Origin: Reyranella sp.
Lineage (GTDB): Bacteria > Pseudomonadota > Alphaproteobacteria > Reyranellales > Reyranellaceae
NCBI GenBank assembly: GCA_019745575.1
Contig: JAIETA010000295.1
Coordinates: 1 to 37,464, forward strand
Direction of reading: 5' to 3'
DNA: 37,464 nucleotides
Numbering within the stretch: position 1 is the stretch's first letter; each line of letters begins with the position of its first letter. The translations under genes and the position numbers were made by a program. Below are positions 750-37,464 of the stretch, one piece after another. The notes beneath the pieces were generated by a model. The model made no database searches, was not told the origin of the DNA, and saw only the letters and a list, made by a program, of their open reading frames with translations.

Positions 750-1633
750 GCGGTCCCATCCCCTTCACCGTCATCGGTGGGTTCCTGGGGGCGGGCAAGA
801 CGACGCTGCTGAACCGCCTGCTGGCCGATGCGGGCGGCCGCCGGTTCGCGGTGCTGGTGAACGACTTCGGCGCCCTCGACATCGACGGCCGTCTGTTGGC
901 GGCACACGGCGGCGACACCATCGCGCTGGCCAATGGCTGCCTCTGCTGCACCATCGGCGATTCCCTGGTGACCACGTTGCTGGGCCTGCTGGAACGGCCG
1001 GAGCGGTTCGATCACATCGTCGTCGAAGCCTCGGGCGTCGCCGACCCCGGCCGGATCGCCGACCTCGCCGTGCTCGAGCCGCGACTCGTGCGCGACGGCG
1101 TGATCGTGGTCGTCGATGCCTCGGAGGTACGGGCACGGGCGGGCGACCGGCGGCTCGGCGACACGGTGATGCGGCAGATCCAGGCAGCCGACCTCCTGCT
1201 GCTGAACAAGACGGACCTCGCGACCGATCTCGCGGCGGTGCGGTGCTGGCTTTCGATGCAGGCCGCCGCGCCGATCCTGGAGTGCCGCGAGGCCGACGTA
1301 CCGCTCGATCTGCTGTTCGGGCTCGATCGCCACGGCGCGACGGCCGCGTCGCCGCCCTCCGACCGCTTCGCGAGCTGGTCCTACGAGTGGGCCGAGCCGG
1401 TCCAGCGCGATGCCGTGTTGGCGATGCTGCGCGAGGCCCCCGGCGAGATCCTGCGCGCCAAGGGCATCGTGCGCTTCGCCGACGCGCCGGACCGCCGCTC
1501 GATCCTCCATGTCGTGGGGCGGCGGCTGGAGATCGCCGATGGCGGTCCGTGGGGCGATACGGGCGGCTCGCGGCTGGTGATGCTGGGCCTCAGGCCCGTG
1601 CTAGGCTCGCTGCAAAGGGAGCAAACGACATGA
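746..1633 (+). CDS. CobW/COG0523-family metal-chaperone GTPase
   Basis: A 295-residue G3E-family P-loop GTPase. It shows the P-loop GGFLGAGKT (11-19), the COG0523 metal-binding motif NGCLCC (Cys65, Cys67, Cys68), VVEASGVADP around residue 94 and the guanine-specificity motif NKTD (154-157). A CobW C-terminal domain follows from about residue 200. COG0523 proteins deliver or insert Zn, Co or other metals into client enzymes. The GTG at 746 is chosen because it sits just before the conserved beta strand leading to the P-loop and overlaps the amidohydrolase stop. The stop overlaps the SDR start (ATGA, 1630-1633). Coupling to a metal-dependent amidohydrolase suggests, by inference only, that this protein metallates it. 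Confidence 0.92.
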   Translation: MSGPIPFTVIGGFLGAGKTTLLNRLLADAGGRRFAVLVNDFGALDIDGRLLAAHGGDTIALANGCLCCTIGDSLVTTLLGLLERPERFDHIVVEASGVADPGRIADLAVLEPRLVRDGVIVVVDASEVRARAGDRRLGDTVMRQIQAADLLLLNKTDLATDLAAVRCWLSMQAAAPILECREADVPLDLLFGLDRHGATAASPPSDRFASWSYEWAEPVQRDAVLAMLREAPGEILRAKGIVRFADAPDRRSILHVVGRRLEIADGGPWGDTGGSRLVMLGLRPVLGSLQREQTT

Positions 1634-29463: not shown

Positions 29464-30483
29464 TCAGGTGCCTTCTTCCTCGCGGCCGGCGAGATGCAGC
29501 GCTTCGGCGTCGATGCCGATCGAGCGCGCATAGTGGACCAGCGCCTCCTCGCGGCCGTGCGTCACCCAGACCTTGGGCGCGCCGACATCCTTCAGGGTCT
29601 GCGTCAGTTCGGGCCAGTCCGCGTGATCGGAGATCACCAGCGGCAGCTCGGCGCCGCGCTGGCGGGCGCGGGCGCGCACGCCCATCCAGCCCGAGCAGAC
29701 GGCCGCGACCGGATCGGCGAAGCGGCGCGACCAGCGGTCGGCCAGTGCCGAGGGCGGGCAAAGCACGATGGCGCCCCTGAAGGTTTCGAGGACGGCGTCG
29801 GAGACCGCCGCCACGTCGCCGAGATCGATGCCGTGATCCTGGTAGAGCTTGCACAGCGCCAGCAGGCTGCCGTGCAGCCAGATCCGCTGGTCGTAGCCGG
29901 CCGCGCGCAGCAGCATGATCACCCGCTGACACTTGCCGAGGGCGTAGACGCCGACCAGGTGCGTGCGCTCCGGGAAGGTGGCAACGGAGCGCAGCAGCTT
30001 GCCGATCTCGCCGGAATCGGAGGGATGGTGGAAGACCGGCAGGGCGAAGGTCGCCTCGGTGATGAAGACATCGCAGGGCACCGGCTCGAAGGGCGGGCAG
30101 GTCGGATCGGGCCGGCGCTTGAAATCGCCCGACACCACGATGCGCTGGCCGCGCCAGGTGAGCACCGCCTGTGCCGATCCCAGGATGTGGCCGGCCGGGG
30201 CAAGACGAACGTCGACCTCGCCCAGGCGGACGCTCTCGCCGTACGGCAGCGGCTGCTGTGCCGTAGCCGGCATGTCGTCGAAGCGGGCGCGCATGATGGC
30301 GAGTGTCTCGGGTGTGGCGAGTGCCGCTTTGTGGCCCGGCCGGGCGTGGTCGCCGTGGCCGTGCGTGATCACGGCCCGCGCGACCGCCACGGCGGGATCG
30401 ACGTAGAAGTCGCCAGGCTCGCAGTAGAGGCCGCGCGGTGTCGGATAGAGCCAGGAGCGGGGGCTTAGGGTCTCGGTTGCCAT
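29464..30483 (-). CDS. Ligase-associated MBL-fold DNA exonuclease
   Basis: A 339-residue metallo-beta-lactamase/beta-CASP nuclease. The metal motif HGHGDH is at 41-46. Further ligands are His in APAGHILGSAQ, Asp in VSGDFKRRPDP and His in VISDHADW; the beta-CASP region carries EATFALPVF. Members process DNA ends in the ligase-associated repair set. The ATG at 30483 lies in a CATG shared with an unused forward ATG; the helicase ATG is at 30512, so the divergent starts are separated by 28 bp. The ligase and probably moaA are downstream in the same transcript. Confidence 0.93.
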   Translation of the reverse strand: MATETLSPRSWLYPTPRGLYCEPGDFYVDPAVAVARAVITHGHGDHARPGHKAALATPETLAIMRARFDDMPATAQQPLPYGESVRLGEVDVRLAPAGHILGSAQAVLTWRGQRIVVSGDFKRRPDPTCPPFEPVPCDVFITEATFALPVFHHPSDSGEIGKLLRSVATFPERTHLVGVYALGKCQRVIMLLRAAGYDQRIWLHGSLLALCKLYQDHGIDLGDVAAVSDAVLETFRGAIVLCPPSALADRWSRRFADPVAAVCSGWMGVRARARQRGAELPLVISDHADWPELTQTLKDVGAPKVWVTHGREEALVHYARSIGIDAEALHLAGREEEGT

Positions 30484-30511
30484 GGGGCCGGGTGCATCAT
30501 ACCCAAGGGAT

Positions 30512-32956
30512 ATGGTTCTTCCCGATCTGTTTGCACGCTGGTTCGAAAGCCGCGGCTGGACACCCCGGCCGCACCAGCTCGCGCTGGTCGACCTGGCGGC
30601 CAGGGGCAGGAGCGCGCTGCTGATCGCTCCGACCGGCGGCGGCAAGACCCTGGCGGGATTCCTGCCGTCCCTGATCGAACTCACGGAACGCCGCCGCGAG
30701 GGCCGGGACCTCGCGCACGCCAAGGGCAAGGGCGAACTGCACACGCTCTACATCTCGCCGCTCAAAGCGTTGGCGACCGACATCCGGCGGAACCTCGAAC
30801 TGCCGATCGCCGAAATGAAGCTGCCGGTGCGGGCCGAGAGCCGGACCGGCGACACGCCGCAGAGCCGGCGACTCCGCCAGCGCGAGCGGCCGCCGGACCT
30901 CCTCATGACGACGCCCGAGTCGCTGGCCCTGCTGCTGAGCTACCTCGATGCGGAGAAATTCTTCGCCCACCTGAAGTGCGTCATCGTCGATGAGCTGCAC
31001 GCCTTCGCCACCACCAAACGTGGCCATCATCTGGCGCTTTGCCTGGCACGAGTGGCGGCGCTGGCGCCCCAGGTCCGGTTCGTCGGCCTGTCGGCCACCG
31101 TGGCCGACCCGGCGGCGCTCGCCGACTATCTGAAGCTTGGCGACCAGCCGGTCGAGATCGTGCGTGGCGAGCCGGGCGCTCAGCCCGTGGTGACCATCAT
31201 CGATGCCCAGGAGCGCATTCCCTGGGGCGGGCACATGGGGCGCCATGCGGTGCCGGAGATCTACAACATCATCCGCCAGCACAAGACCTCGATCGTGTTC
31301 GTCAACACCCGTGCCCAGGCCGAGCTCGCCTTCGACGGCCTGTGGCGGATCAACGAGGACAACCTGCCGATCGGCCTGCATCACGGCTCGCTGGCCGTCG
31401 ATCAGCGGCGCAAGGTCGAGGCGGCGATGGCGGCGGGCAAGCTGCGCGCCGTGGTGGCGACCTCGTCGCTCGACCTCGGCATCGACTGGGGCGACGTCGA
31501 CCTGGTGATCCAGATGGGGGCACCCAAGGGCGTGAGCCGCCTGATGCAGCGGATCGGCCGGGCCAACCACCGGCTGGACGAGCCCAGCCGCGCCATGATC
31601 GCGCCGGCCAACCGCTTCGAGGTGCTGGAATCGCTGGCCGCACTCGAAGCCGTCGAGGCGCGCGAACTCGACGGCGATCCGCCGCGGCCGCCCTGCCTCG
31701 ACGTGCTGGCCCAGCACATCGTGGGCACCGCCTGCGCCCATCCGATCGACCGCGAGGCGTTCTTCGCCGAAGTGCGGCGTGCCCAGCCCTATCGCGAACT
31801 GCCGCGCCAGGACTACGACGACACGTTCGATTTCGTGGCCACGGGCGGCTATGCGCTGGCCGCCTACGACCGCTGGCACCGGCTGAAGGAACTGCCCGGC
31901 GGACGCTGGATGCTGGCCTCGCCGCTGGTGGCGCGGCAATTCCGCCTGAATGTCGGCACCATCGTCGAGCTGCCTTTGCTGAAGGTGAAGCTGCGGCGCG
32001 GGCCGGTCCTGGGGGAGGTCGAGGAGTCTTTTATCCAGGGGCTGGTGCCGGGCGACACCTTCACCTTTGCGGGGCGGCTGCTGCGCTTCGAGGGCGTGAA
32101 GGAGCTGATGGCGCAATGTTCCTTGGCGACCGGCGGCGGCGATCCCAAGGTGCCGGCCTATGGCGGCGGTCGCCTGCCGCTTTCGACCTTCCTGGCCGAC
32201 CGGGTACGCGGCATCCTGGAAGATCCGTCGCGGCACCCCAAGCTGCCGGACGAGGTGCGCGAATGGCTGCGCATCCAGCGCGTCCGTTCGACCCTGCCGC
32301 GCAGCGACCGGCTGCTGGTCGAGGGATTCCCGCGCGGCGGCAAGCAGTTCATCGTGGCCTATTGCTTCGAGGGACGGAACGCCCACCAGACGCTGGGCAT
32401 GCTGCTGACGCGGCGCATGGAGCGTCTGGGGCTGAGGCCGCTGGGTTTCGTCGCCACCGACTATGTGCTGGGTCTGTGGGGCCTGCGGCCGCCCACGGCG
32501 GCGCAACTCGACCAGCTCTTCGACGAGGACATGCTGGGCGACGATCTCGAGGCGTGGATGGATGAATCGACCATGCTGCGCCGCTCGTTCCGCAACGTCG
32601 CGGTGATCGCCGGCCTGATCGAGCGGCGCTTTCCCGGCGAGGAGAAGTCACGCCGGCAGGTGACGTTCAGTTCCGACCTGATCTACGACACGCTGCGCCA
32701 GCACGAGCCCGACCACATCCTGCTGCGGGCCACCCGCCAGGATGCGGCGTGGCAACTGGCCGACCTCAAGCGCCTGGGCGATCTGCTGCGACGGGCCAAG
32801 GGCCGCATCGACTACCGCCGGCTCGACCGCATCTCGCCGCTCGCCGTGCCGGTGCTGCTGGAGATCGGACGCGAGCAGGTGCTGGGCGGCACGGCAGAGG
32901 ACGAACTCCTCGACATCGCCGCCCAGGAGTTGATCGACGAGGCGACGCGGCTCTAG
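30512..32956 (+). CDS. Ligase-associated DEXH-box (Lhr-like) helicase
   Basis: An 814-residue superfamily 2 helicase. Walker A APTGGGKT is at 39-46, motif II VDELH at 159-163, motif III SAT at 194-196, and motif VI QRIGRANHR near residue 353, followed by the winged-helix and Lhr-type C-terminal regions. Lhr-family enzymes unwind duplexes 3'-5'. It is the third member of the ligase-associated repair set and diverges from the exonuclease. MVLPDLFARWF at 30512 is chosen because family proteins start there; the in-frame ATG at 30482 overlaps the exonuclease start. Its TAG shares CTAG (32953-32956) with the convergent small gene. The phosphoesterase that often follows is absent. Confidence 0.94.
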   Translation: MVLPDLFARWFESRGWTPRPHQLALVDLAARGRSALLIAPTGGGKTLAGFLPSLIELTERRREGRDLAHAKGKGELHTLYISPLKALATDIRRNLELPIAEMKLPVRAESRTGDTPQSRRLRQRERPPDLLMTTPESLALLLSYLDAEKFFAHLKCVIVDELHAFATTKRGHHLALCLARVAALAPQVRFVGLSATVADPAALADYLKLGDQPVEIVRGEPGAQPVVTIIDAQERIPWGGHMGRHAVPEIYNIIRQHKTSIVFVNTRAQAELAFDGLWRINEDNLPIGLHHGSLAVDQRRKVEAAMAAGKLRAVVATSSLDLGIDWGDVDLVIQMGAPKGVSRLMQRIGRANHRLDEPSRAMIAPANRFEVLESLAALEAVEARELDGDPPRPPCLDVLAQHIVGTACAHPIDREAFFAEVRRAQPYRELPRQDYDDTFDFVATGGYALAAYDRWHRLKELPGGRWMLASPLVARQFRLNVGTIVELPLLKVKLRRGPVLGEVEESFIQGLVPGDTFTFAGRLLRFEGVKELMAQCSLATGGGDPKVPAYGGGRLPLSTFLADRVRGILEDPSRHPKLPDEVREWLRIQRVRSTLPRSDRLLVEGFPRGGKQFIVAYCFEGRNAHQTLGMLLTRRMERLGLRPLGFVATDYVLGLWGLRPPTAAQLDQLFDEDMLGDDLEAWMDESTMLRRSFRNVAVIAGLIERRFPGEEKSRRQVTFSSDLIYDTLRQHEPDHILLRATRQDAAWQLADLKRLGDLLRRAKGRIDYRRLDRISPLAVPVLLEIGREQVLGGTAEDELLDIAAQELIDEATRL

Positions 32957-33147: not shown

Positions 33148-36100
33148 TCAGTGAAAATCCCGCGAGGGGATACGGATTTTCGGCCGGTCGGGCACGGCCG
33201 GAACGGCCCGGCTGGAGCGGTGGCGCGTGGCATTGGCCTCGGGCACCGCCACGCGGCGGTCGCCCGGGTCGCTGCGGACTTCGTCGCCGCGGCCAGTGGT
33301 CAGGCGGAAGGTCTCGTCGATCTCGGCGATGCGGTCGAGGTCGGCCGACCAGTCCCAGAGCTGTTCGGCGACCAGATGGATCACCAGCCCCTCGCGCTGG
33401 ATGCGCCCCCGCACGCCCAGCAGGCGGGCGCCCATGACGGTGCGGCGGTGGGCCGCGAAGACTCTTGGCCAGACCACGAGATTGGCGATGCCGCTTTCGT
33501 CCTCGATGGTGACGAACACCACGCCCGAGGCGGTGCCCGGACGCTGCCGCACCAGCACCAGACCGGCGAGGGTGAAGATGTCTCCATTCCTGGAAGTGGC
33601 CAGCACCGTGGTGCCGGACACGCCCTTCTGCATCAGCGCCGGCCGCAGCAGCGCCAGGGGATGGGAGCGCAGCGACATGGAAAAGCTGCCGTAGTCGTCC
33701 ACCACCTGCTCGCCCAGCGTCAATGCCGGCAGGGAGACGGCGGGTTCGAGGTCGCGCACCTTCGGCCGATCCGGCGGCCGTTCGTCGAGCAACGGCAGGC
33801 GCGCGTCGGAGAAGCCGCGCACCGCCCACAGAACGTCGCGGCGGCTGAGCCCCAGCGAGGCGAAGGCGTCGGCGCGGGCGAGTGCTGCGATCTGGCGCTT
33901 GGTGAGGCCGCTCCGCCGCCACAGGTCGGCCGGGTCGCGATAGGGCTCGGTGCGGCGCTCGACCAGGCGCTTCATGTCGGCCTCGGCGAGGCCCGCGACC
34001 TGGCGCAAGCCGAGGCGGAGCGCGCAGCGGTTGCTTTGGCTCGGCTCCAGCGTGCAATCCCAGTCGCTGGCGTTGATGTCGGGCGGCCGCACCTCGACGC
34101 CGTGCTCGCGGGCGTCGCGCACGAGCTGGGCCGGCGCATAAAACCCCATCGGCTGCGAATTGAGCAGGGCGGCGGCGAAGACCTCGGGGTAGTAGTGTTT
34201 TACCCAGGACGAGACGTAGACCAGGATCGCGAAGCTGGCGGCATGGCTTTCTGGGAAGCCGTACTCGCCGAAGCCCTCGATCTGCTTAAAACAGCGCTCG
34301 GCAAAGTCACGCGCGTAGCCGTTGCCCACCATGCCCTCGATGAAATCGTCCTTCAGCTTGTGGATCGTGCCGGCCCGGCGGAACGTCGCCATGGCGCGGC
34401 GCAGCTTGTCGGCCTTGGCCGGGCTGAAGCCGGCCGCGACGATGGCGATCTGCATCGCCTGTTCCTGGAACAGCGGCACGCCGCGCGTTCTTGCCAGGAC
34501 ATCCCTGAGTTTCCCCGGATACTCGATTTCCTCGGCCTTCCTGGCCCGGTTCTTCAGATAGGGATGGACCATGCCGCCCTGGATGGGGCCGGGCCGCACG
34601 ATCGCCACCTCGACGACGAGATCGTAGTAGTCGCGCGGCCTGAGCCGCGGCAGCATCGACATCTGCGCCCGGCTCTCGACCTGGAACACGCCGACCGAGT
34701 CGGCCTTGCACAGCATGTCGTAGACCGCCGGGTCGTTGGGCCTCATGTCGAGCCGGGGGTGCTCGTCATAGTGCCTTGCGATCAGATCGAAGCTCTTGTG
34801 CAGGCAGGTCAGCATGCCGAGCGCCAGCACGTCGACCTTGTAGATGCCGAGCACGTCGAGGTCGTCCTTGTCCCATTCGACGACGGTGCGGTCCTCCATG
34901 GCCGCGTTCTGGATCGGCATCAGCTCGTCGAGGCGATCGGCGGTGAGCACGAAGCCGCCGACATGCTGCGAGAGATGGCGGGGAAAGCCGCACAGGGTGG
35001 CCGACAGTTCGAGAGCCAGCGCCAGACGGGGATCGCCGGGATCGAGGCCGGCCTCGACGACATGCCTGCGGTCGATGCCGCCCGATCCCATGCCCCACAC
35101 CGTATCGGCCATGACTCCCACCGTGTCGGGTGACAGGCCGAGCGCCTTGCCGACGTCGCGGATGGCGCTGCGGCTCCGGTAGGCGATCACCGTGGCGGCG
35201 AGCGCCGCCCGGCTGCGGCTCCACTTGCCGTAGATCCACTGGATCACTTCCTCGCGCCGCTCGTGCTCGAAATCGACGTCGATGTCGGGCGGCTCGTCGC
35301 GCGCGTTGGACAGGAAGCGCTCGAACAGGACTTTGACTTCGTTGGGATTGACCTCGGTGATGCCGAGGCTGTAGCAGACCGCGGAGTTGGCGGCCGAGCC
35401 GCGGCCCTGGCAGAGGATGCCGAGGTCGCGCGCCTTGGCGACGATCTCGTGCACGGTCAGGAAGTAGGGCGCGATCCTCTTCTTTTCGATCAGCGCGAAC
35501 TCGTGCCGGATCGTTTTGGCGACCTCGCGCGGAATGCCCCCGGGATAGCGCCGCGCCGCGCCCTCCCAGGTGAGCCCGACGAGCTTGTCCTGGGGGGTCT
35601 CGCCGCCTTCGTACTCGACCGGATACTGGTAGGTGAGCTGGCTGAGCGAGAAGCCGCAGCGCGCGACGATCTCCTGGGTGCGTGCGATGGCGGACGGATG
35701 ACGGCGGAACAGCCGCGCCATCTCCTGCGGCTCCTTGAGGTGCCGCTCGGCGCTGGCGAAGCGGCGCAGGCCGAGCGCGTCGACCGTGCAGCCGAGCCGG
35801 ATGGCCGTGACCACGTCCTGCAACGCCCGCCGCTCGGGGACGTGATAGTGCACGTCGTTGGTGGCGACGAATCCGACCTTCATGTCGGCCGCGAGATTGT
35901 CGAGCTGGGCCAGGCGGCGCGCGTCGTCGCCGCGGAACAGCATGGTGCCGGCGAGGTAGCAGCGGTCGCCGAACAGGCGGGCCAGCGCCCGCAGGCGCTC
36001 GCGGAAGGCCGGATCGTCGGGCCGGCGCGGCGGCAGGACGATCGCAAGCAGGCCGTCGGCGTGGGCGGCGAGGTCGTCGAAGGCGAGGTCGCACCGGCCT

Positions 36101-36432
36101 TTCTCGGCGCGGCGGTTGCCCAGCGTCAGGAGGCGGGAGAGCCGCTTGTAGGCGGCGAGGTCGGTCGGATAGGCGAGCAGGGAATAGCCGTCGCGCGTCT
36201 CGAGCCGGGCGCCGACCAGCAGCTTGATCCGGTCCTCCTCCGGCGCCGGGTGCTCCTCGTAGTACTCCTTGATCGCGGCATAGGCCCGCACCACGCCGGC
36301 CAGGGTGTTGCGGTCGGCGATGCCGATGGCGCTGTGGCCGAGCTCGATCGCCTGCCGCACCAGCTCGCCGGGATGCGAGCCGCCGCGCAGGAAGCTGTAG
36401 TTGGTCGTGACCTGCAGCTCGGCGTAGCGCAC
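33148..36432 (-). CDS. dnaE2: Error-prone DNA polymerase DnaE2 (ImuC)
   Basis: A 1094-residue C-family polymerase of the DnaE2/ImuC type, which with ImuA and ImuB performs SOS mutagenesis and lesion bypass. The PHP domain starts at YAELQVTTNYSFLRGGSHP (3-21), lacking several metal ligands as usual for DnaE2. The palm has PDIDVDF (382-388, catalytic Asp383/385), GRGSAANS at 343-350 and FPESHAASFA in the fingers. An OB fold (GIANLVVWPRVF) is near the C-terminus. The start is a GTG at 36432 at the conserved N-terminus, only 4 bp after the vapC stop and without a Shine-Dalgarno sequence, so expression probably depends on coupling to vapC translation. Confidence 0.95.
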   Translation of the reverse strand: MRYAELQVTTNYSFLRGGSHPGELVRQAIELGHSAIGIADRNTLAGVVRAYAAIKEYYEEHPAPEEDRIKLLVGARLETRDGYSLLAYPTDLAAYKRLSRLLTLGNRRAEKGRCDLAFDDLAAHADGLLAIVLPPRRPDDPAFRERLRALARLFGDRCYLAGTMLFRGDDARRLAQLDNLAADMKVGFVATNDVHYHVPERRALQDVVTAIRLGCTVDALGLRRFASAERHLKEPQEMARLFRRHPSAIARTQEIVARCGFSLSQLTYQYPVEYEGGETPQDKLVGLTWEGAARRYPGGIPREVAKTIRHEFALIEKKRIAPYFLTVHEIVAKARDLGILCQGRGSAANSAVCYSLGITEVNPNEVKVLFERFLSNARDEPPDIDVDFEHERREEVIQWIYGKWSRSRAALAATVIAYRSRSAIRDVGKALGLSPDTVGVMADTVWGMGSGGIDRRHVVEAGLDPGDPRLALALELSATLCGFPRHLSQHVGGFVLTADRLDELMPIQNAAMEDRTVVEWDKDDLDVLGIYKVDVLALGMLTCLHKSFDLIARHYDEHPRLDMRPNDPAVYDMLCKADSVGVFQVESRAQMSMLPRLRPRDYYDLVVEVAIVRPGPIQGGMVHPYLKNRARKAEEIEYPGKLRDVLARTRGVPLFQEQAMQIAIVAAGFSPAKADKLRRAMATFRRAGTIHKLKDDFIEGMVGNGYARDFAERCFKQIEGFGEYGFPESHAASFAILVYVSSWVKHYYPEVFAAALLNSQPMGFYAPAQLVRDAREHGVEVRPPDINASDWDCTLEPSQSNRCALRLGLRQVAGLAEADMKRLVERRTEPYRDPADLWRRSGLTKRQIAALARADAFASLGLSRRDVLWAVRGFSDARLPLLDERPPDRPKVRDLEPAVSLPALTLGEQVVDDYGSFSMSLRSHPLALLRPALMQKGVSGTTVLATSRNGDIFTLAGLVLVRQRPGTASGVVFVTIEDESGIANLVVWPRVFAAHRRTVMGARLLGVRGRIQREGLVIHLVAEQLWDWSADLDRIAEIDETFRLTTGRGDEVRSDPGDRRVAVPEANATRHRSSRAVPAVPDRPKIRIPSRDFH

Positions 36433-36436
36433 GGCG

Positions 36437-36877
36437 TCACGCGGCGTCGAGTTCGTGCACGCGCGCAAGCGGCACGCCGCGGATGGCGACACCCTCGATC
36501 CGCAGCACCTGCAGGAAGACCTCGTCGCTGCTGACCAGCACCGCCGAGACCGCCTCGGCGCAGGCGGCGTAGAAGCAGTCGTGCACGGGCCGGCCGCACT
36601 GCAGCGCCAGGGCCAGCGCGCGGTTGCGCAGCCGCGACGATTCGACGAAGGCCGAGATGAAGGGCGGCAGGGCGATGTTGCGCACGATGGGGGCGGCCTG
36701 CTCGGCCGCGATCTCGCGGCGCGCGGCCTTCTTCCAGGCAAGGTCGGCCACGCCGGCGATCAGGATGTCGGGCGCGATCAGTTCGCGGCGGTTGACCAGC
36801 AGCGAGCGCGCCTGCGGCCGCAGCGGTTCCTCGACGAACCACTTGATGGCGACGCCCGGATCGACCACCACGATCAT
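36437..36877 (-). CDS. vapC: VapC/FitB-type PIN-domain toxin with atypical active site
   Basis: A 146-residue PIN-domain protein, normally a ribonuclease toxin. Asp6 (VVDPGVAIKWF), Asp100 (HDCFYAAC) and Asp118 (VSSDEVFL) match three of the four acidic active-site residues. The position normally occupied by Glu in APDLLLAEVAN is Gly42 here (APDILIAGVAD), with Asp45 three residues later; Gly8 also replaces the usual Ser. Activity may be reduced or lost. The ATG overlaps the antitoxin stop (ATGA, 36874-36877), and the stop is 4 bp before the dnaE2 GTG. Its position inside the imuB-dnaE2 operon is unusual. Confidence 0.85.
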   Translation of the reverse strand: MIVVVDPGVAIKWFVEEPLRPQARSLLVNRRELIAPDILIAGVADLAWKKAARREIAAEQAAPIVRNIALPPFISAFVESSRLRNRALALALQCGRPVHDCFYAACAEAVSAVLVSSDEVFLQVLRIEGVAIRGVPLARVHELDAA

Positions 36878-37065
36878 CGGCCGTCGGGCGTCATGGCGGC
36901 GATGCGGTCGGCCTCGGCCACGGCATCGACGATCAGGGGCTGGCGCGAGGCCCGGGTCAGCAGTTCGCGCACCTCGGCCTCGAGCGAGCAGCCGCGGGTG
37001 CGGGCGCGGGCCTTGAGGCGGGTGATGACGGTGTCGTCGAGATTGCGGATGGCGATCGTGCCCAT
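36874..37065 (-). CDS. vapB: VapB/FitA-like ribbon-helix-helix antitoxin
   Basis: A 63-residue protein of the FitA-like Arc-type ribbon-helix-helix antitoxins: strand IAIRNLDDTVITRLKARAR, helix RGCSLEAEVRELLTRAS, then a short C-terminal toxin-binding tail. Such proteins neutralise the PIN toxin and repress their own promoter. The ATG at 37065 has AAGGAAG about 5 bp upstream and is only 11 bp after the imuB stop, leaving no room for a normal autoregulated promoter except inside imuB. Confidence 0.85.
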   Translation of the reverse strand: MGTIAIRNLDDTVITRLKARARTRGCSLEAEVRELLTRASRQPLIVDAVAEADRIAAMTPDGR

Positions 37066-37076
37066 GGCGCTTCCTT

Positions 37077-37464
37077 TCAGGCGCAGAATCCGTGGAGGAA
37101 CCAGCGGGCCGTCGGCTGGCCGTTGGCCGAGAGCTTGTAGGGGCCGTCGCGGAACAGCCAGAAGCGGCCGCCGTCGTCGTCTTCGACGCGGTAATAGTCG
37201 CGCACCGGCGGCACGGCGTTTGCCGGCGGCCGGCTGCCGTCGGGCCTGGGCCGCCACCATTCGTCGGCGATCCGCTCCGGCCCCTCGGCGCGCACGATGC
37301 GATGGGCATGCCGGCGCCAGTGGAAGACCGACGGCGGATCGTCGGGCACGAAGGCGGTGACATCGACCGGCTCGGGCCGCCGCAGCAGCCGCGTCGGCCG
37401 CGCGCCCTTGAGAGCGGCCAGACGCCGCCAGGCGCCGTCGGCGGCCGGCCGGGACGAGACGCGG
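37077..37464 (-). CDS. imuB: ImuB (Y-family polymerase-like), C-terminal part
   Basis: The frame is open to the right edge, giving the last 128 residues of a DNA polymerase Y-family protein of the ImuB type. The C-terminal pattern is diagnostic: LLRRPEPVDVTAFVPDDPP, FHWRRHAHRI, AEGPERIADEWWR, RDYYRVEDDDGGRFWLFRD and WFLHGFCA. ImuB lacks polymerase activity and serves as the beta-clamp-binding hub that joins ImuA and DnaE2. It would be followed by dnaE2 in the canonical imuA-imuB-dnaE2 cassette, but here vapBC lies between them. imuA and the promoter are outside the window. Confidence 0.9.
   Translation of the reverse strand, partial: RVSSRPAADGAWRRLAALKGARPTRLLRRPEPVDVTAFVPDDPPSVFHWRRHAHRIVRAEGPERIADEWWRPRPDGSRPPANAVPPVRDYYRVEDDDGGRFWLFRDGPYKLSANGQPTARWFLHGFCA

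Follow-up and report, generated by a model that had tools for sequence, protein, structure and literature searches.

Type II toxin–antitoxin (TA) pairs of the VapBC/FitAB kind combine an antitoxin-first gene order, an ATGA overlap between the two genes, an antitoxin with a FitA-like ribbon–helix–helix (RHH) domain and a toxin with a PIN domain; canonical PIN nucleases are built around four acidic residues, Asp, Glu, Asp and Asp (the DEDD quartet). In a stretch of 37464 bases from Reyranella sp. (contig JAIETA010000295.1 of assembly GCA_019745575.1; the whole stretch is called the window below), such a pair lies within the operon of an SOS-induced translesion polymerase, in the order imuB–vapB–vapC–dnaE2, with every one of these genes on the minus strand. 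The pair of the window is most likely a former TA pair that serves the ImuA–ImuB–DnaE2 mutasome or its control.

The locus has the four hallmarks of VapBC/FitAB systems given above, and relatives with an intact active site occupy the same slot elsewhere. Unlike those systems, the pairs of clade D, as we name the 42 VapC-bearing genomes that group with the window on a DnaE2–ImuB tree (on a branch that also takes in genome G047, support 99), have no catalytic Glu42, often a changed residue 100 and no neutralizing tail on the antitoxin, and they are fixed inside an SOS polymerase operon under purifying selection without a toxin signature. Compared with the ImuA–ImuB–DnaE2 cassette, relatives of the window show imuA, a LexA box, imuB and dnaE2 in order, and imuB and dnaE2 of the window keep the same strand and order, but two additional genes stand between them. 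Accessory proteins are not foreign to such operons: SRAP and a standalone ImuB-C are described as encoded together with ImuA, ImuB and DnaE2 (PMC3765255), although these belong to protein families different from VapB and VapC. ImuB itself is an inactive Y-family polymerase, and ImuA1 is described as a RecA homologue without Walker motifs (PMC12926913); like them, VapC belongs to an enzyme family, has a site that was lost or altered and appears to have been recruited to the mutasome.

The idea of TA exaptation is already known; in their replies to a reviewer, the authors of a type II survey suggest that some PIN toxins are perhaps inactivated and that solo toxins or antitoxins are perhaps exapted (PMC2701414). 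No description of the imuB–vapBC–dnaE2 arrangement was found in the open-access literature, as judged by titles and the beginnings of abstracts. Words beginning with 'toxin' do not occur in the main text of two gene-neighbourhood studies of the mutasome (PMC12926913 and PMC3765255), nor do 'VapC' and 'PIN domain' in that of the latter.

Layout and conservation of the operon

The window is one complete contig (C345), which terminates inside imuB. The 3' end of this gene, corresponding to the ImuB-C region (37077..37463; all coordinates are on the minus strand unless stated otherwise), is cut on its 5' side by the contig end and has no Pfam match itself, but resembles the full imuB of relatives, one of which (locus L038, from the cultured strain Reyranella soli NBRC 108950, whose pair is also remodelled) carries the IMS domain PF00817. 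The imuB stop codon (37077–37079) is separated by 11 nt, which include the Shine–Dalgarno (SD)-like sequence AAGGAAG (37070..37076), from vapB (36874..37065), which encodes a FitA-like RHH protein of 63 residues (PF22513, E 1.6e-14). An ATGA overlap (36874..36877) leads into vapC (36437..36877), coding for a PIN-domain protein of 146 residues (PF01850, E 5.3e-7), and the GTG start of dnaE2 (33148..36432) follows 4 nt past the vapC stop. DnaE2 matches the error-prone polymerase model NF004225 of NCBIfam with 1367 bits against a cut-off of 939. The first-pass annotation had placed a FitAB/VapBC-type pair in exactly this arrangement, and its coordinates are correct.

A search of 75 genomes of the family, 65 of them from the same genus as the window, with an ortholog threshold of E 8e-55 or better, found VapC in 43 of the 65 Reyranella genomes and always behind imuB–vapB (43/43). 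In 41 of the 43 dnaE2 comes next, the contigs of the remaining two ending first. Such conservation across species, which extends to other families as described below, had been named by the earlier note as evidence for a functional unit, and it rules out a chance insertion in one strain. The single carrier outside clade D, G039, is placed among genomes with an empty slot on the DnaE2–ImuB tree. The 22 genomes without a VapC ortholog comprise 15 in which dnaE2 follows imuB without the pair, two with VapB only, four (G024, G029, G030 and G058) with no dnaE2 match at E 1e-100 and one, G047, whose contig ends 0.14 kb ahead of dnaE2. The two VapB-only genomes, G049 and G068, keep short scars of vapC, and G065, with an empty slot, has an apparent remnant of the vapB start, as read by eye; judging by these remnants, the pair was once present and then lost in several Reyranella lineages. 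VapC also occupies the imuB–dnaE2 slot in two further members of the family, G001 and G004. On the sequence evidence, the arrangement is genuine, has long existed in the genus and is under selection.

The spacing of the genes is tightly kept. The overlap between vapB and vapC measures 4 nt in 45 of 45 genomes (the 42 of clade D, G039, G001 and G004), and the vapC stop lies 3–4 nt from the dnaE2 start in 36 of the 40 clade D genomes with this start in view. An SD match of at least four bases precedes vapB in 30 of the 42 clade D genomes, whereas none precedes dnaE2 in the window, as had been noted earlier, or in 38 of the 40; the two matches that do occur belong to the genomes with the widest gaps (57 and 77 nt), and only that of G042 (57 nt) is well placed. 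The motif GAAC-N7-GAAC, which we take to be the alphaproteobacterial LexA box, lies 49–67 nt (157 nt in one case) ahead of imuA in all 44 loci with a near-complete imuA, that is, with a match starting in the first 25 residues; the scan covered 54 loci, a few genomes contributing more than one. imuA was named by its position and a common query of 278 residues, for which there is no Pfam match. Both imuA and the box are seen in relatives only, since the window breaks off within imuB. No LexA box was found between imuB and dnaE2 in any of the 40 clade D genomes with dnaE2 in view, a position at which other promoters are possible. We infer a single SOS transcript and translational coupling of dnaE2 to vapC; the spacing and the missing SD sequence thus support the proposal of the first-pass annotation that the pair is cotranscribed with, and coupled to, the polymerase gene.

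VapC pocket, VapB tail and selection

The active site of VapC is non-canonical. Alignment with a solved relative, 2fe1, which has Glu at the corresponding position, places Gly at codon 42 of the window's VapC (36752..36754), where canonical PIN domains have the catalytic Glu, so that the quartet reads Asp6, Gly42, Asp100 and Asp118 and is broken. Three residues further on, codon 45 (36743..36745) specifies Asp where canonical VapCs have Asn, and codon 96 (36590..36592) specifies Arg in place of His. The quartet is broken in all 42 clade D proteins, with Gly at position 42 in 41 and Asp in one, and the best 120 of 271 database relatives have Gly (114), Asp (5) or Ala (1) there. Further positions of the pocket vary within clade D: five of the 42 proteins have Glu at residue 6, 18 have Glu, Ala or Gly at residue 100 and four have a changed residue 118. 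Ser8 is missing from 39 of them and His96 from all. By comparison, among 31 canonical VapCs (10 linked, that is, encoded between imuB and dnaE2, and 21 unlinked), Ser8 and Glu42 are invariant and Asn45, His96 and Asp100 are each kept in 30.

For VapC1 of Haemophilus influenzae, replacement of the equivalent glutamate (E43A, or E43G in a double mutant) is reported to abolish toxicity, and a D99N form reportedly still binds VapB and the promoter (PMC4229260). The nuclease site of clade D VapC is probably dead. 'Probably' is preferred here since the lost acid reappears at position 45 and since an acid shifted by three residues has a precedent in VapC1, at another position, with E120 standing for D117 (PMC4229260).

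The antitoxin has changed as well. The VapB of the window ends without the QTDSVxLLREDRxR-type neutralizing tail, and the motif R.DR, chosen for the screen since REDR misses the RQDR of G039, is absent from the last 25 residues of VapB in all 42 clade D genomes. Outside clade D, 12 linked VapBs were read, and 11 of them, all but that of G103, have the tail; it is present in VapB of G039, G001, G004, the G102 strain and the VapB-only genomes G049 and G068. Two other linked lineages have a non-canonical VapC pocket, and of these G075 has kept the tail and G103 has not. In Shigella VapBC, as described for that complex, an arginine of the VapB tail touches the equivalent Glu and Asp (PMC3384007), and the joint loss of Glu42 and of the tail is what would be expected once neutralization is not needed.

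The remainder of VapB is retained. The residues of its N-terminal strand are kept in clade D (Thr3 in 39, Thr5 in 41 and Arg7 in all of the 42 genomes; the window itself has Ala at position 5), and this strand is presumably the one that faces DNA. The helix that follows is conserved up to Pro60, where conservation ends.

Both genes are under purifying selection in clade D. A codon model on a fixed tree gave an omega of 0.153 for VapC and of 0.176 for VapB, the latter from columns at least 90% filled and hence mostly without the tail, against 0.119 for DnaE2-N and 0.084 for ImuB-C (rows cut by contig ends were dropped: G060 from the ImuB codon set and G021, G031 and G037 from that of DnaE2). 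Median pairwise values are higher but give the same picture (0.23, 0.37, 0.20 and 0.15, respectively). Fixing omega at 1 worsened the log-likelihood by 528 for VapC and by 209 for VapB, which rules out neutral decay of the pair. Indeed, 50 of 143 VapC sites are unchanged throughout clade D; residue 100 changes seven times. ImuB-C has four clade-specific columns in clade D versus none in DnaE2-N, which is only suggestive of a shift in this region.

The pocket changes recur in separate lineages. All three non-canonical linked lineages (clade D, G075 and G103) have Asp or Glu at position 45 and Arg at position 96, and two have Gly at position 8; within clade D, an acid stands at position 45 in 41 of the 42 proteins and Arg at position 96 in 34. 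The sharing of these changes looks like remodelling rather than random decay.

Proposed role of the pair and alternative explanations

The explanation that we favour, with some reserve, is that an ancestor of Reyranella acquired a FitAB-type VapBC pair between imuB and dnaE2, and that the pair was exapted in clade D. VapB would have retained its DNA-binding strand and the helix expected to dock on the PIN domain, and would have lost the tail with which it plugged the active site of the toxin; VapC would have retained the sequence signature of the PIN domain and lost the canonical catalytic set. Both proteins would be made from an SOS-induced imuA–imuB–vapB–vapC–dnaE2 transcript, with translation of dnaE2 coupled to that of vapC. 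As a VapBC complex that binds DNA and is not toxic, they would most likely assist the ImuA–ImuB–DnaE2 mutasome or regulate it, with ImuB-C, DnaE2 or an operator as candidate targets. The clade D pair is accordingly described here as probably not a TA system.

PIN domains that act with a partner have a parallel in eukaryotes. The PIN domain of SMG5 alone is degenerate. SMG5 is described as completing the active and substrate sites of SMG6 (PMC12923823); unlike VapC, SMG5 and SMG6 function in eukaryotic mRNA decay and have no antitoxin origin.

Several observations weigh against the favoured explanation. The acid at position 45 replaces the one lost at position 42 in 41 of the 42 clade D VapCs, acids at positions 6, 45, 100 and 118 occur together in 37 of them, and a displaced active site would account for this pattern no less well than an inactive one. 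The 3' end of imuB, where an operator for autoregulation of the pair might lie, shows no sign of a conserved one in clade D: synonymous diversity does not drop there, and the spacing varies. Seventeen Reyranella genomes outside clade D lack at least one of the two genes, and the mutasome can therefore do without them. Finally, linked genomes are scattered on a class-wide DnaE2 tree (13 changes versus a shuffled mean of 13.7, with 147 of 500 shuffles as low).

The acid pattern would also suit an active, remodelled nuclease, in which the acid would have moved by one helical turn (E42G with N45E/D), antitoxin control would have become unneeded and the enzyme would cut a mutasome substrate such as damaged DNA or RNA. 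An acid is found at position 45 in 115 of the best 120 of the 271 database relatives, and the exchange of Asn45 for an acid is common to all three non-canonical lineages; the shifted acid of VapC1 is in line with such a move. The variation at residues 6, 100 and 118 argues against it, as does the loss of Ser8 and His96, both near-invariant in canonical VapCs, and we consider this explanation unlikely.

A working type II TA pair tied to the SOS response, in which VapC would halt growth or make the cell dependent on keeping the mutasome cassette, is less probable still. This was the function envisaged by the first-pass annotation, which suggested a possible link between growth arrest and mutagenesis or a protection of the cassette from loss. 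The architecture of the pair is intact, G039, G001, G004 and the G102 strain combine quartet and tail in their linked pairs, and of 13 linked lineages that were compared, 10 have the quartet. In clade D, however, growth arrest or addiction is unlikely because the catalytic Glu is lost and the neutralizing tail is missing, in each case throughout the clade. VapC was lost with VapB kept in G049 and G068, and together with the apparent vapB remnant of G065 this indicates that the pair has not protected itself from loss in these genomes. Either effect may apply where a related lineage has kept its active site in this slot, although loss of the pair is common outside clade D.

A decaying remnant that serves as a translational relay, with vapB and vapC kept open for the translation of dnaE2 irrespective of their protein sequence, would agree with the close spacing, with the missing SD sequence and with the well placed SD match of G042 behind a wide gap, but is very improbable, since the low omega values and the unchanged VapC sites show that the protein is selected and since the 15 pair-less Reyranella genomes with dnaE2 after imuB need no relay.

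The capture and exaptation favoured for clade D bear on two questions, namely which extra proteins the ImuA–ImuB–DnaE2 mutasome uses and whether chromosomal TA pairs are ever domesticated for housekeeping. The case suggests that an old TA pair became a working part or a regulator of the mutation machinery, and that some database proteins annotated as 'VapC family toxin' are not toxins. Genomes differ in what the imuB–dnaE2 slot holds, which gives a natural series of states: nothing, an intact pair, VapB alone, VapC with no vapB in view, or a remodelled pair that is under purifying selection. The series points to testable species and residues. In a broader form, to which we give somewhat less than even credence, a TA complex would have become, on more than one occasion and through shared changes of the pocket, a dedicated and SOS-induced part of a translesion polymerase complex, either a DNA-binding accessory or an antitoxin-free nuclease of the mutasome.

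Linked pairs in other families and neighbouring features

With the VapC of G039 as query, matches at E 1e-26 were found in nine of 386 genomes of the class, of which six lie outside the family, in alphaproteobacterial families; all six are located between imuB and dnaE2. The VapC of G075, from the same order, and those of G419 and G103, obtained by a profile search, occupy this slot too. The pair of G102 is the same as that of genome ECT2AJA-110-B (loci L070 and L139). A tblastn survey of the gap covered 107 unique dnaE2 loci outside the family, mostly taken down the score list, with some added as kin of known cases and G287 and G102 from the VapC search; imuB was visible in 102, the other five having none within the stretch fetched, and the slot held VapC in eight loci and VapB only in one. 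With the strict limit of E 1e-42, G000 and G102 were the sole matches among 397 genomes sampled from the phylum, a sample that may be made up in part of genomes from the class itself. On plasmids, three Azospirillum records have a 44% relative.

In a VapC tree, 23 linked rows stand apart from the 21 unlinked VapCs with a modest support of 72; 20 of these 21 came from a profile built on linked VapCs. Because linked genomes are scattered on the class DnaE2 tree, the class-wide history is best read as patchy, either old with many losses or shaped by several transfers into one slot. That tree, which is weak, being based on only 100 residues, and from which locus L261 was dropped, does not support simple vertical descent across the class.

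Five loci from other families (L186, L187, L218, L229 and L242) have different small genes inserted between imuB and dnaE2, open reading frames whose products resemble, by eye, GIY-YIG or DUF559 proteins. Since other families carry other small genes there, the slot may be an insertion hot spot. In locus L196 (G336), a VapB-like gene in the gap (447–1500 in gene orientation) is followed, in the place of vapC, by an open reading frame that, read by eye, we take to be REP-associated-transposase-like. In locus L139 (G102; 922–2319, reversed orientation), two tandem RHH antitoxin-like genes and then a VapC with a long C-terminal extension (a frame of 276 residues) lie between imuB and dnaE2. In locus L138 (G367; 1000–1416, plus strand), a vapC with an intact quartet directly overlaps the imuB stop and no vapB was found in the stretch, which makes an antitoxin-less toxin in a mutasome operon possible.

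In loci without the pair (G006, G051, G065, G002 and G047), near-palindromic or short palindromic stretches around a CCACTCCAGTGG-like sequence recur, by eye, in or near the imuB–dnaE2 gap. One of these genomes, the Reyranella genome G051, has a second dnaE2, 55% identical (C1:3364523-3367777). In the window, a gene for a ligase-associated DNA damage response DEXH box helicase (TIGR04121, 1083 bits) lies at 30482–32956 on the plus strand, convergent with dnaE2.

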